A DNA stretch of 42,037 nt from a virus: positions 1 through 42,037 of the IMG/VR virus record IMGVR_UViG_3300044679_000022; one strand, 5' to 3'. Every line of letters begins with the position of its first letter. The stretch's first letter is position 1. Positions 2,345-7,431 of this stretch are shown piece by piece. The notes beneath the pieces are model-generated. The model saw nothing but the letters and a program-made list of their open reading frames with translations. It made no database searches and was not told the DNA's origin. A program made the position numbers and the translations under genes.

Positions 2345-3895
2345 ATGGCATTGCGAGCAAAGAAGCCTGAACAGGTTCAGAAGCGTCTGAAAGCGTTGAT
2401 CTTTGGGCCGGCCGGCAGCGGCAAAACGCGGGCATCGCTGGAATTCCCCAAAGCCTACATCATCGACGGCGAGCGCGGCACGGAGAACTATGCCAAGCTG
2501 ATCGAAGCCGCCGATTCTGTCGTAATGGGCGTCAAAGAGGGCGCGCTCGACGTGAATGAGGTGGACAGGGAGGTCGGCGAACTGCTCTCTGTCCGCCACG
2601 ACTACCGCACGCTGGTCCTCGATCCCTTCACCACGATATTCCGCGAGGCTTGCGACGTGGCCGAGGATCAAGTGGGAACCGATTGGGGCAAGAACGTCGG
2701 CGTGGCCAATAAGAAGTGGAAATCACTGTCTAATACGATCACCAACCTGGACATGAACGTCATTATCACATGCCACGCCAAGGACGAATACAAAAAGCTG
2801 CCAGGCCGCAAGGAACGCGAGCTTATCGGCCAGACCTATGACGGCGCCAAGGGCATGGACTACCTCTTTGACCTAGTGGTCAGCCTGCGAAGCGGCGGGC
2901 GCGACGTGCCGAGCATCGCCACGGTTTGCAAGACGCGGATTGAGACCTTCCCCATGGGCGACGAATTCGCCTGGAGCTACAAGGAACTGAAACGCCGCTA
3001 CGAAGCTTTCGCCGGTCCAGGCATCCTCGAAAAGACAGCCGGATCGGTGGCAATGGCAACTGCCGAGCAAATCACGGAGCTTAATTCACTGCTGGAGGTG
3101 GTGAAGATGGGCGACGATTGGCTTGAACGGGTACTGAGCAAGGCCCAGGTCAACGAGCTTTCGCAAATGCGGTTTGATGATCTGTCCAAGTGCATCGGGC
3201 TTGTAAGAGCTAAGATACCGCCCAGTTCCGCCGCGCCCAAGGCTGCTAAGCCTCCTGTCGCCAGGAAGCCCGCCGAACAGGCTCCGTTGGCCACAAACCT
3301 ACAAGAAGTCGCCCCTCCCCCGCCCAATGCCAAGGTGGAGGCGTTCCTAGCCGCCGGCAAGCCCGTGGAGGCGGCCAAAGAGCTTGGCGCATCGCTGGGA
3401 ATGACGACGGGGGATAAGGTTGTGGCGCCCGCGCCGAAAGCGGCCGCGGAGCCGGCATCGCCAATCCCCGGCGATGGTCCAACGCAAACCACTGACGAAT
3501 ACGATCGGCAATTGCAAGCCCTGGCCGATGAACTGGAACAGGAGGCAGTCAAGACGGAGCCAGCCAAGGAAGCGCCTGAGCCGATTAAGGCGGCGGTGGA
3601 ACCCGCCGCGGCTCAGGCTGCGGCTCCATCGGACGAAGCGCGCTGGGCGCCGTCCATCTCGCACGAAGATTTCGTCGGCTACGCCATGGAAGTGGCTGAT
3701 GCCGAGGGAACGGTCGCGCCCAATGAAATCGCCAAGCGGATCGGGCTGCACGTCCGCTATCTGGCCAGCCTGACCAACAAAGAGACACTCAACGTCGATG
3801 GCTGGACGGCGGCGCAGCGCACGCGGCGGCGCAAGGTGATACTGGAGGCGATCCGGGCCGGCAAGCTTGGCGAAGATGGGAGGGTGGCGAAGTGA
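2345..3895 (+). CDS. Sak4-like AAA ATPase (phage nucleotide-binding protein)
   Basis: Residues 1-210 are a RecA-like ATPase domain of the phage AAA_24/Sak4 type. The Walker A GPAGSGKT is at 21-28, a Walker B strand (RTLVLDP) has its Asp at residue 93, and a sensor-like VIITCHAKDE follows. Sak4 proteins bind single-stranded DNA and assist phage recombination and replication. Residues 220-430 are an Ala/Pro/Glu-rich, probably disordered linker. The last ~85 residues fold separately and resemble a helical DNA-binding domain (EIAKRIGLHVRYLASLTN). At 516 aa it is about twice the length of a simple Sak4. The ribosome site is CTGGAG. It shares a GTGA overlap with the next gene and heads the replication operon. 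Confidence 0.85.
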   Translation: MALRAKKPEQVQKRLKALIFGPAGSGKTRASLEFPKAYIIDGERGTENYAKLIEAADSVVMGVKEGALDVNEVDREVGELLSVRHDYRTLVLDPFTTIFREACDVAEDQVGTDWGKNVGVANKKWKSLSNTITNLDMNVIITCHAKDEYKKLPGRKERELIGQTYDGAKGMDYLFDLVVSLRSGGRDVPSIATVCKTRIETFPMGDEFAWSYKELKRRYEAFAGPGILEKTAGSVAMATAEQITELNSLLEVVKMGDDWLERVLSKAQVNELSQMRFDDLSKCIGLVRAKIPPSSAAPKAAKPPVARKPAEQAPLATNLQEVAPPPPNAKVEAFLAAGKPVEAAKELGASLGMTTGDKVVAPAPKAAAEPASPIPGDGPTQTTDEYDRQLQALADELEQEAVKTEPAKEAPEPIKAAVEPAAAQAAAPSDEARWAPSISHEDFVGYAMEVADAEGTVAPNEIAKRIGLHVRYLASLTNKETLNVDGWTAAQRTRRRKVILEAIRAGKLGEDGRVAK

Positions 3896-4692: not shown

Positions 4693-7431
4693 ATGAAGCT
4701 CCGCCCCTACCAACTTGAAGCCATTGCCGCCGTCCGCGAGTGCTGGGCGTCAGGGGAACGCAACGCCATTATTTCGATGGCCACCGGCTGCGGCAAGACG
4801 GTCATCTTCGCCGATCTGGCCCGCGAGCAGATGGCCCATGGCCGCGTGATGACGCTGGCCCACCGCGACGAATTGATCGAGCAGGCCCGCGACAAGATGA
4901 CGCACTGGACAGGCGTGCGGCCGGCCCTGGAAAAGGCCGAGCATTACGCCGATCGGGGGATGCACCGCGATTCGCCGCTGGTGGTGAGCAGCTTCCAGAC
5001 CCAGGCTCATGGACAACTCAAGCGTTGCCGAAGTTTCAACCCCAGTGATTTTTCGATGGTGATTGCGGACGAGTGTTTTCCGGCCGGGACACTGGTTGAT
5101 GGAAGGCGCATCGAGCGAATAAGGGTCGGCGACCTGGTTAAGTGCTGGGATCACAAGAAAAACATGAGTGTCTATCGCCCGGTACTCAATCTGTTCCGCC
5201 GAAACTCGTCCGACCTGGTCCGCATCACCCTCTCTGACCACTCGCGCCTGATCTGCACCGCATCACACCCGGTATGGTCGGACACACGGGGAAAATATGT
5301 GGCTGCCGGCTTGCTTGACAGCCGAGATATGGTGCTTAAACTCATCACATATGAGCAAAATCCATATTCCCCGCCGTCCAGTTCGGGACCTGCCCTGCAT
5401 CACCTGCGGAATCATCGTACATTGCGAGGGGAAACGCGGCAGGGAAATGGACAGGAGGGGTCGAGTATATTGCTCGCCAGCTTGCTCACAAAAAGAACGT
5501 GCTCGCTTGTCGTCCCTGCGGATGGCCAAGACAAACCGAAAGTACGCCTCGGCCAGAATGACGGCCAACAACCCGATGGCCAGACCAGAGATTCGGGCCA
5601 AAGTGTCCGCGGCGATGGCGGGAAGATCGCCAATAATTCGCGGCGGAAACGGCAGGCCGCCAAGCAAGCGAGAGGTGGCACTGGCGGTGGCGCTGGGGTG
5701 GAAAATAAACCACCACGTCAGAACGATGGCAACGCACATGGGCTTCCCATCGGTCTACAAGATAGACGTGGCCAACGAGGCCATGAAGATAGCAATCGAA
5801 GTGGACGGCGGATCGCACGGAACACTGATCCGGCAGACACAGGATCGGAAAAAAGAGTCGTTCTTACGCTCGTTGGGGTGGACCGTGTTGAGGTTTACCA
5901 ACAAACAGGTGGACGAAAATCTCGCGGGGTGCGTGGAGGAAGTCCGGTCTATAATATCGAGGTTGCCGAACACAACAACTACTTCGCCGATGGCGTCTTA
6001 GTCCACAATTGCCATCACAATCCAGCAAAAAGCCACAAGGCGGTCATTGACCACTACATGCGGAATCCCAATTGCAAGCTCCTGGGCGTGACGGCGACGT
6101 GCGATCGTGCCGACAAAAAGAAGCTGCACGGGACGGTCTGCTATCAATACGACATCGATCGGGCCATCAAAGATGGCTATCTCGTCCCTATGCAGGCCCG
6201 GCGTTACAAGATTGAGGGGATGGATTTTACGCGGATCAAGCATGGCGGCGACTTCACCGAAGGCGACTTGGACCAGATCATCCGCGAAGAAAAAACCCTC
6301 CACGGTATCACCTGTGCGGCCATAGAAGCGGCCTTTCGCCTGCCCCGCTATTGGATGCGCACCTGCGAGAATCCAGAGCTGCTCTCCCAGGAGATTGCAG
6401 AAATTAAGCCTCGCTCGACGATTATCTTCCTGCCCGCCAGGGAATCCGTTGAGCAAACCCCGCTGACCAAACTCACCGCCGACATCTTGAATCGATGGGT
6501 TCCGGGGTGTGCCCGGCCCATCGACGGCAACATGGACAAGGAGATTCGACGTGCCACAATCGACGACTTCAAAGCTGGTCGTTTCGCTTTTTTGTGTGGA
6601 TGTATGGTTCCCACGGAAGGGTTCGATGCTCCTTGTGTATCGTGCGTCGTTGTCGCTCGACCCACAAAATCCAGAGGACTTTATGCGCAAATGGTTGGGC
6701 GCGGGACAAGACCTGCTGAATCAGTTGCCGGAGTTCTCTCAGATATCGAATCCGCCGATTCCCGCCGCCAAGCCATCGCGGCGTCGGAAAAGCCGGACCT
6801 CCTGATCGTCGATCTGGTCGGCAATACCGGCCAGCACAAACTCATCACCGCGGCACACCTGTTCTGCGTCCCTGGCCGCGAATCCGCCATCAACACCGGC
6901 GAGGTGGATGACGCCAACCCCATGGATCAGGCCGCCGATGCCTCCAAGCTGTTCGATCAGGTGGCTGAATTTAAGGACGCAATCGAGAAGCTGGAAGCCC
7001 AGCGCGTGTCCCGCGCCATCGAAAACGCCATGGCCGAGCCGGACATCCTCCAGCGCGAACTGGACAGAGTGCAGGCCAGGCTGCGAGTGATCGGCGTGGC
7101 GAGTCTGGATTACCGGGAAGTGGACGTGCTTGGCAATGGGACTGAGAGCGAACCGGAACCTATGTATGCAAGCCAGGTGAAGTCCGGGCTGTCTGTGAGC
7201 AACCCGGACTTGTACCAAAAACTCTGCGGCATGGGCGTGAATCCCATGACCGCCGACAAGTATGGCGAGCGGCAGGGCTGGACGGTGCTAGTCCGCATGC
7301 GCGACAAGCAATGCACTTTGAAGCAGGCACGGTTCCTCAAGGTTCTAGGGTATCAGGATTCGGAGATTGCCGAGATGAACTTCAAGCAGGCATGCAAGGC
7401 CATTGAGGCCAGCAAGGGAGCAGAAGTATGA
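4693..7431 (+). CDS. SF2 DECH-box helicase precursor interrupted by an intein
   Basis: This is a superfamily 2 helicase of the type III restriction/RAD25-like class. RPYQLEA is at 4-10 and Walker A ATGCGKT at 30-36; LAHRDELIEQA is motif Ia. The Walker B VIADE stops at residue 127, where an intein (128-439) begins, and resumes as CHHNP at 440, so the mature protein has an intact DECH box. Motif III is GVTATCDRAD, and the motif VI region QMVGRGTRP is at about 666-674. After removal of 312 intein residues the mature protein is 600 aa. Residues after ~720 form a coiled C-terminal region ending in a small helical domain. It probably unwinds DNA during phage replication. It starts 6 bases after the previous gene and shares ATGA with the next. 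Confidence 0.93.
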   Translation: MKLRPYQLEAIAAVRECWASGERNAIISMATGCGKTVIFADLAREQMAHGRVMTLAHRDELIEQARDKMTHWTGVRPALEKAEHYADRGMHRDSPLVVSSFQTQAHGQLKRCRSFNPSDFSMVIADECFPAGTLVDGRRIERIRVGDLVKCWDHKKNMSVYRPVLNLFRRNSSDLVRITLSDHSRLICTASHPVWSDTRGKYVAAGLLDSRDMVLKLITYEQNPYSPPSSSGPALHHLRNHRTLRGETRQGNGQEGSSILLASLLTKRTCSLVVPADGQDKPKVRLGQNDGQQPDGQTRDSGQSVRGDGGKIANNSRRKRQAAKQARGGTGGGAGVENKPPRQNDGNAHGLPIGLQDRRGQRGHEDSNRSGRRIARNTDPADTGSEKRVVLTLVGVDRVEVYQQTGGRKSRGVRGGSPVYNIEVAEHNNYFADGVLVHNCHHNPAKSHKAVIDHYMRNPNCKLLGVTATCDRADKKKLHGTVCYQYDIDRAIKDGYLVPMQARRYKIEGMDFTRIKHGGDFTEGDLDQIIREEKTLHGITCAAIEAAFRLPRYWMRTCENPELLSQEIAEIKPRSTIIFLPARESVEQTPLTKLTADILNRWVPGCARPIDGNMDKEIRRATIDDFKAGRFAFLCGCMVPTEGFDAPCVSCVVVARPTKSRGLYAQMVGRGTRPAESVAGVLSDIESADSRRQAIAASEKPDLLIVDLVGNTGQHKLITAAHLFCVPGRESAINTGEVDDANPMDQAADASKLFDQVAEFKDAIEKLEAQRVSRAIENAMAEPDILQRELDRVQARLRVIGVASLDYREVDVLGNGTESEPEPMYASQVKSGLSVSNPDLYQKLCGMGVNPMTADKYGERQGWTVLVRMRDKQCTLKQARFLKVLGYQDSEIAEMNFKQACKAIEASKGAEV
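5074..6009 (+). mobile_element. Intein in the helicase DECH box, with endonuclease nested out of frame
   Basis: The intein is residues 128-439 of the helicase precursor. Block A starts at Cys128 (CFPAGTLVDG, then IRVGDLVKCWD). Block B is TASHPVW with the conserved Thr189 and His192. Block F is VYNIEVAEHNNYFADG, and block G ends VLVHN at Asn439, followed by the +1 nucleophile Cys440. All key splicing residues are present. In the precursor frame the segment between about residues 217 and 400 is an Arg/Gly/Gln-rich, featureless linker and contains no endonuclease. The +1 frame of the same DNA encodes a homing nuclease. Confidence 0.93.
5351..6001 (+). CDS. EDxHD/Vsr-like homing endonuclease nested in +1 frame of the intein
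   Basis: This 216-residue protein lies wholly inside the intein, one frame off. Residues 16-45 form a zinc-finger-like cluster (CITC, then YCSPAC). Residues 73-89 (NNPMARPEIRAKVSAAM) look like the NUMOD3-type DNA-binding motif common in homing nucleases. The catalytic PD-(D/E)XK/Vsr-like core shows YKIDVANE (Asp139), IAIEVDGGSH (Glu150, Asp152, His156), Asp165 with RKK, and GWTVLRFTN. The order matches the EDxHD homing family described with split inteins. The stop codon is 8 bases before the intein end. ATG 5351 has no clear ribosome site; an in-frame ATG at 5297 has GGGGA 4 bases upstream and would add 18 residues. It presumably cuts intein-free helicase alleles. Confidence 0.85.
   Translation: MSKIHIPRRPVRDLPCITCGIIVHCEGKRGREMDRRGRVYCSPACSQKERARLSSLRMAKTNRKYASARMTANNPMARPEIRAKVSAAMAGRSPIIRGGNGRPPSKREVALAVALGWKINHHVRTMATHMGFPSVYKIDVANEAMKIAIEVDGGSHGTLIRQTQDRKKESFLRSLGWTVLRFTNKQVDENLAGCVEEVRSIISRLPNTTTTSPMAS

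Follow-up and report, generated by a model that had tools for sequence, protein, structure and literature searches.

The window analysed here, that is the whole 42,037-base stretch of the virus record IMGVR_UViG_3300044679_000022 (IMG/VR), contains an SF2-type DNA helicase gene interrupted by an intein, and the DNA of this intein encodes a second protein in the +1 reading frame. We consider it very probable that this element is a mobile intein carrying its homing endonuclease as a separate, overlapping +1 gene. An earlier sequence-only reading of the same DNA had proposed such an out-of-frame nuclease inside a contiguous intein; the proposal is confirmed, and the arrangement is not unique to the window, the same +1 layout being present in its relatives. 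What was computed are two open and conserved frames, a zero-stop signature, a phase flip of substitutions, the catalytic residue sets of both proteins, an enrichment of Shine-Dalgarno sequences, and the exact presence or absence of the whole intein between phage genomes.

Two proteins encoded by one intein

The helicase open reading frame (ORF) encodes a precursor of 912 residues without an interrupting stop, and its Pfam matches in the helicase frame are ResIII (1e-23), Helicase_C (9e-13), PT-HINT (1e-7, residues 138-215) and Intein_splicing (3e-5, residues 157-439). The features of the locus are listed below in window positions (↓ marks the insertion point; pLDDT, predicted local distance difference test).

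4693-7431, plus strand: SF2-type DNA helicase gene, host gene (extein) plus intein (open frame; Pfam ResIII and Helicase_C)
5074-6009, plus strand: intein of 312 residues, Cys1...His311-Asn312↓Cys+1, in helicase motif II, DE↓CHH (domain matches, alignment, sequence reading)
5074-5349, plus strand: residues 1-92, forming the N-terminal half of the Hint (splicing) domain and including blocks A and B with T62xxH65 (AlphaFold pLDDT about 97)
5288-5292, plus strand: Shine-Dalgarno-like GGGGA upstream of ATG 5297, within Hint coding sequence (Arg-Gly codons), -5.7 kcal/mol
5297-6001, plus strand: nested +1-frame gene for a predicted EDxHD/Vsr-like homing endonuclease of 234 residues, with zinc-finger-like N-terminus and catalytic C-terminus (DUF559 3e-12, homology, structure)
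5350-5856, plus strand: intein-frame linker, residues 93-261, R/G/Q-rich, predicted disordered and overlapped by most of the nuclease (pLDDT 43-52 over most of its length)
5351-5353, plus strand: alternative nuclease start proposed by the sequence-only reading, with no Shine-Dalgarno sequence (start comparison)
5396-5485, plus strand: presumed zinc site CxxC...CxxxC of the nuclease, C34, C37, C59 and C63 (kept in 53-55 of 56 relatives)
5531-5581, plus strand: nuclease family signature TNRKYASARMTANNPMA, presumed DNA-binding segment (alignment of relatives)
5798-5845, plus strand: catalytic EDxHD residues of the nuclease, E168, D170, H174 and D183 (alignment of relatives)
5857-6009, plus strand: C-terminal Hint half with blocks F and G (VYNIEV...VLVHN), whose DNA up to 6001 also codes for the nuclease tail (nuclease/Hint frame scan, AlphaFold)
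5999-6001, plus strand: nuclease stop TAG, within the codons for Leu-Val of VLVHN (C-terminal intein motif), 8 nucleotides before the intein end (sequence; position shared by 18 of 71 clusters)
6010-7431, plus strand: helicase C-extein, its first residue being the Cys+1 nucleophile (Pfam, alignment)

In the helicase box DE↓CHH the insertion separates Glu from Cys. The boundaries given by the sequence-only reading, with Cys1 at 5074 and Asn312 ending at 6009 before Cys+1, are correct, and its description of an Arg/Gly/Gln-rich linker in the helicase frame agrees with the composition listed above. All class 1 residues are present in the window (C1, T62, H65, H311, N312 and Cys+1), and C1, T, H and the terminal N are shared by all 43 aligned inteins. 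Both Hint halves are folded confidently by AlphaFold with the disordered linker between them, and the model resembles solved inteins in Foldseek with E values down to 1e-6. By the features tested the insert is thus a class 1-type intein, for which protein splicing is predicted. Canonical large inteins have their nuclease in the intein frame; in the window, and in all 84 close-family loci described below, it is found at +1.

The +1 ORF (5297-6001) matches DUF559, a Vsr-like family of Pfam, at 3e-12. The catalytic residues that had been recognised beforehand as Glu150, Asp152, His156 and Asp165, counting from 5351, are residues 168, 170, 174 and 183 when counted from 5297, and the EDHD set is complete in 54 of 56 aligned nucleases, including that of the window. 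The zinc-finger-like cysteines noticed at the same time are likewise conserved in the family. As regards the suspected NUMOD3-like motif, the segment TNRKYASxRMxxNNPM is strongly conserved, but NUMOD3 itself is not called by Pfam at E<=1. The AlphaFold model of the nuclease averages a pLDDT of 88, with 171 of the 234 residues reaching at least 90, and its structural matches by VIA-align include 3hrl (Z 12.0), the catalytic domain of I-Bth0305I (3r3p, Z 10.9) and Vsr (1cw0, Z 9.6), with an additional profile match to 3r3p (E 0.0019). By residues and fold the nested protein is an EDxHD (Vsr-like) nuclease, whose cleavage and homing activities we infer from the presence/absence pattern of the intein.

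Conservation of the +1 layout

Searching phage records with the nuclease by tblastn returned 43 records of cultured phages, 32 of which have a query coverage of 80% or more. With identities of 39-46%, the strong matches fall inside annotated genes, many of them named helicase. All eight records inspected, from Corynebacterium, Pseudomonas and Vibrio phages, have the nuclease at +1 within an open helicase coding sequence flanked by complete intein ends, and in none of the eight is a nuclease gene annotated at the nested site. Single-sequence scans of viral contigs with the nuclease gave no match, alignments being required, and an alignment-based scan yielded 77 viral and 41 genome-contig loci. 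When the nuclease frame was set relative to the N-terminal Hint half by six-frame profile scans, it was +1 in 84 loci (71 clusters at <85% identity), 0 in eight and +2 in none; note that these loci were retrieved with nested queries, so that the fractions are not prevalence estimates, and that the clusters counted are related by descent. The search of relatives for the two-frame layout, which the sequence-only reading had suggested, thus came out in its favour. That reading had also named homologues with an in-frame nuclease as evidence that would speak against it: none was found among close relatives, and the in-frame cases belong to a separate, distant clade (24-29% identity to the query), with Phage_Mu_F exteins in five of six examined.

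A second sample of loci, retrieved by the Hint domain, again consisted mostly of inteins with a +1 nuclease. Exteins bearing +1 nucleases include SF2 helicases, SNF2 helicases, DNA polymerase III clamp-loader subunits and one terminase. In the nuclease tree the window pairs with a free-standing nuclease, L028 (support 99/83), and the in-frame class forms its own clade, although support is too weak for counting the origins of nesting. Several individual loci deserve mention. In L202, of the Hint-based sample, the Hint halves are not in one frame and the nuclease is at another offset. The intein of a radical SAM protein (L089/L090) encodes a different, nuclease-like but unassigned protein in its +1 frame, whose only similarity to the nuclease family is a short stretch containing RMKxNNPM; the +1 frame of the L212 intein codes for a nuclease-like protein that matches HNH weakly (E 0.003); and L064 is a host gene with two inteins, in which a LAGLIDADG domain occurs together with an intein bearing a +1 nuclease.

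Selection on the two frames

Expected numbers of intein-frame stops were computed from the nuclease proteins and the codon usage of each locus. About 773 stops were expected in the 71 clusters and 35 were seen, all in the single locus L062; the other 70 clusters have none, against about 750 expected. The window alone has none against 8.2 expected (P < 0.0025, 400 resamplings; P = 0.01 by permutation of its own codons). The signature is also seen at the level of single nucleotides: among nuclease codons followed by AA, AG or GA, 0 of 4193 end in T in nested loci, T occupying 23% of other positions. At the same risk positions exteins have T in 22.5% of cases; the values are 31% for free copies located beside helicases and 15% for other free copies, 32% for in-frame inteins and 35% for the fractured L062.

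In close pairs, changes in the linker fall at its codon position 1, which is the wobble position of the nuclease, and almost never at position 3. For L004 and L006 the changes at host codon positions 1, 2 and 3 number 32, 3 and 0 in the overlap, versus 59, 35 and 194 in the C-extein. From this phase flip it follows that the nuclease is the constrained protein, being under strong purifying selection, and that the linker must mainly stay open; both frames are open because selection keeps the linker free of stops.

The genetic code offers an explanation for the frame itself. At +1, a stop in the intein frame requires a nuclease codon ending in T before AA, AG or GA, and each amino acid has a codon that does not end in T, so that linker stops can always be avoided by synonymous change. 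At +2 a TGA cannot be avoided wherever Met precedes K, N, T, I or M. Such a Met-[KNTIM] step is found in 68 of 69 EDxHD nucleases, usually at a conserved R-M-[KNTIM] position that lies within the 5531-5581 signature in the window, and the lack of +2 EDxHD cases is explained by the stop that it would force, with no special assumptions needed.

Predicted expression of the nested gene

Nuclease starts sit close to the end of the region coding for the N-terminal Hint half. Their best Shine-Dalgarno energies average -5.8 kcal/mol, whereas matched stretches of extein average -1.3 (p = 1e-10) and the third frame averages -1.1, and plain Shine-Dalgarno sequences are seen in several loci, for instance AAAGGAGG. 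This enrichment makes internal initiation on the helicase mRNA the likeliest route by which the nuclease would be synthesised. The start favoured by the sequence-only reading, 5351, giving 216 residues, was replaced: ATG 5297, with its Shine-Dalgarno-like sequence, is the better candidate and the predicted start codon of the window.

Mobility and relatives with empty sites

The helicase genes of phages phi673 and phi674 are 99.1% identical outside an intein of exactly 906 bp; those of CP-T1 and VchM-138 (96.4%) differ by exactly 1059 bp, and those of Vibrio phages 159E43-1b and 142E35-1 (85.1%) by exactly 900 bp. As these pairs differ by exactly a whole intein, the unit is mobile. Empty alleles of the three pairs read DEVHH or DEAHH and filled ones DE↓CHH, which is consistent with co-conversion of the Cys codon together with the intein. 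In related Vibrio phages the same site is either empty (PS17B.1) or occupied by a mini-intein of 450 bp (268E42.1, K459), an allele without nuclease whose +1 frame is full of stops. Nucleases of the same family are also found as free genes directly upstream of intein-less helicases (L028, L044 and L096).

Some further observations concern these loci and the neighbourhood. In L044 the reading frame of the helicase changes at the intein site. L142, which comes from the record that also contains L028, is a RecA-like protein with an intein in which an HNH motif appears by eye to be in frame, and L139 (Vibrio phage PS65A.1) has two inteins in one gene, one LAGLIDADG-like by eye in the P-loop and the other the 450-bp mini-intein. 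Upstream of the helicase, the window encodes a Sak4-like single-stranded DNA annealing protein (2345-3895; PHROG 124, 5e-18).

A second nested class and a possible route to split inteins

Six loci of the Hint-based sample (L197, L199, L200, L214, L217 and L222) have an HNH nuclease at +2. A scan with these HNH_3 zinc-finger nucleases gave 80 loci (L224-L303), of which 70 are nested, every one of the 70 at +2; L304 and L305 are also listed under this class. The Met-[KNTIM] step is present in none of the 70 nested HNH nucleases, with 6 in the 10 others. Host-frame stops number 0 versus 196 expected (46 testable clusters), and starts are enriched in Shine-Dalgarno sequences (p = 2e-15). Seven of eight host ORFs checked match terminase large-subunit families, the TJE1 and Highwayman terminases being named examples.

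In L062 the host gene is split, with the nuclease between the halves and the C-terminal Hint half in its own ORF. Together with L063 and, by stop pattern, L203 and L213, it represents relatives of the +1 family with stops in the linker frame, and L062, as well as L203/L213 by their stop pattern, suggests how split inteins could derive from nested ones. As avoiding stops is the main demand on the linker, the gain of one stop and of a new start would give a split intein. Stops between Hint halves are also present in L210 and L223, where the ORF between them is GIY-YIG-like by eye, although not confirmed by Pfam, and in L216, where it matches a TnsA-like domain.

Taking both classes together, we lean towards the view that out-of-frame nesting is a general and undescribed design of mobile inteins, in which nuclease families overprinted the linker independently, each locked to one frame that the genetic code helps to fix (EDxHD at +1, HNH_3 at +2), and in which a single stop plus a new start would produce a split intein within a fractured gene, L062 being an example.

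Alternative explanations and proposed mechanism

Because the sequence-only reading had the sequence of one contig, and canonical inteins have their nuclease in frame, it could be objected that sequencing or assembly errors, in the form of two compensating indels, displaced an in-frame nuclease. The +1 layout, however, recurs in dozens of phage genomes and metagenomic contigs that were sequenced independently, and stops and T at risk positions are absent; such indels are excluded, and we attach virtually no weight to this explanation. It is just as hard to credit that the +1 frame is a chance ORF or a decaying nuclease relic. The window does contain several other long overlapping ORFs at a G+C content of 54-66% in 1-kb steps, and while the earlier argument from open frames was right in that the nuclease is not decaying, ORF length alone is no evidence here; what counts is homology, the statistics on missing stops and the shared layout. 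Chance and decay are contradicted by the DUF559 match, the identity to phage relatives, the conserved catalytic residues and the concentration of substitutions at nuclease wobble positions.

Programmed ribosomal frameshifting out of the helicase frame, producing a fusion of N-extein, N-terminal Hint half and nuclease in place of internal initiation, would also result in a low nuclease dosage, but we regard it as improbable: in the nuclease frame of most loci an ATG or GTG lies upstream of the zinc finger and is preceded by a strong Shine-Dalgarno sequence, a combination that the third frame lacks, and in many loci the nuclease frame becomes open no more than a few codons ahead of this start. 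There is a similarly slim chance that the Vsr/DUF559-like protein has a non-homing role in repair or restriction and that the intein is immobile. Vsr-fold nucleases include non-homing members such as Vsr itself, and some relatives are free-standing, away from any intein; against this stand the exact presence or absence of whole inteins between helicase alleles of 85-99% identity, the nesting in inteins of several unrelated exteins, and the structural match to the homing endonuclease I-Bth0305I.

Some points nevertheless weigh against a mobile intein with an overlapping endonuclease gene. Protein splicing, internal initiation, cutting and homing are deduced rather than computed. The Shine-Dalgarno sequence of the window is moderate and only 4 nucleotides from the ATG. 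A single-sequence scan of viral contigs with the C-extein of the window's own helicase returned no intein-less relative. Linker similarity between relatives is slightly above the stop-avoiding null (z about 8-12, diverged pairs), and the linker may carry a weak constraint of its own. The linker as a conserved protein was considered and is mostly rejected by the position-1 changes in close pairs, the small residual similarity staying unexplained.

Under the reading that we prefer, the mobile intein with its overlapping +1 endonuclease gene, a ribosome in the helicase frame would produce the helicase-intein precursor, in which the Hint halves, tied by the disordered linker, would fold together and splice themselves out. 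A second ribosome would initiate within the Hint coding sequence, at the Shine-Dalgarno sequence and ATG 5297, read in +1 and make the free EDxHD nuclease, its reading ending 8 nucleotides before the intein end. The nuclease would then cut intein-less helicase alleles at the codons of DE↓(C/A/V)HH, the cut being expected in the phi674 allele near GATGAG↓GTGCATCAC, and repair of the cut allele would copy in the whole intein. The linker would be a by-product of nuclease codons, on which selection acts mainly against stops.

Significance and comparison with known systems

A phage intein that seems to have no nuclease and a linker without meaning may encode a homing endonuclease in a different frame, and nested inteins appear as a widespread and conserved design that is overlooked by current genome annotation. 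They provide an unusually clean case of same-strand dual coding, with a folded protein in one frame, a disordered linker in the other, and an arrangement explained by the genetic code. They also suggest a possible origin for split inteins and fractured genes, and the phi673/phi674 helicase pair makes homing by a nested nuclease directly testable in a host that is harmless.

Like canonical inteins, that of the window has a Hint domain bearing the class 1 residues and lies at a conserved active-site motif, and among its relatives the whole element is either present or absent, but canonical inteins encode their nuclease in frame, whereas that of the window is out of frame and presumably synthesised separately. 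I-Bth0305I resembles the nested nuclease in catalytic fold (3r3p) and EDxHD pattern, the comparison being one of catalytic domains, and differs in being encoded by a phage intron. Fractured genes, reportedly described by Dassa and colleagues in 2009, are said to have split inteins whose halves are separated by a free-standing gene for an EDxHD nuclease. The same nuclease superfamily thus lies between intein halves in phage helicase-type genes in both systems, but the host gene of a fractured locus is split into two ORFs, as in L062, whereas the window's ORF is continuous, its intein contiguous and its nuclease overprinted on the linker.

In the literature we found no intein with an out-of-frame nuclease. 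The nearest case is not an intein but the ShiLan domain, an HNH endonuclease 'hidden' in the methylase of a mycobacteriophage (Arsenault, Gosselin and Gogarten, 2025; PMC11855218). For overlapping frames that paper cites Gorbalenya (1998) and a 2025 preprint on non-canonical actinobacteriophage inteins (10.1101/2025.01.02.630785); the preprint may pre-empt part of the present results. Like the insert of the window, ShiLan leaves the host frame open, encodes a homing-type nuclease in a different frame, with the stop of that nuclease right at the insertion's end, and shows a disjunct distribution. It differs in having an HNH nuclease and no splicing domains, and is thought to remain in the protein, whereas the EDxHD nuclease of the window is flanked by a complete Hint domain; with the nested gene so enclosed, the host protein is predicted to be restorable, unlike that of ShiLan.

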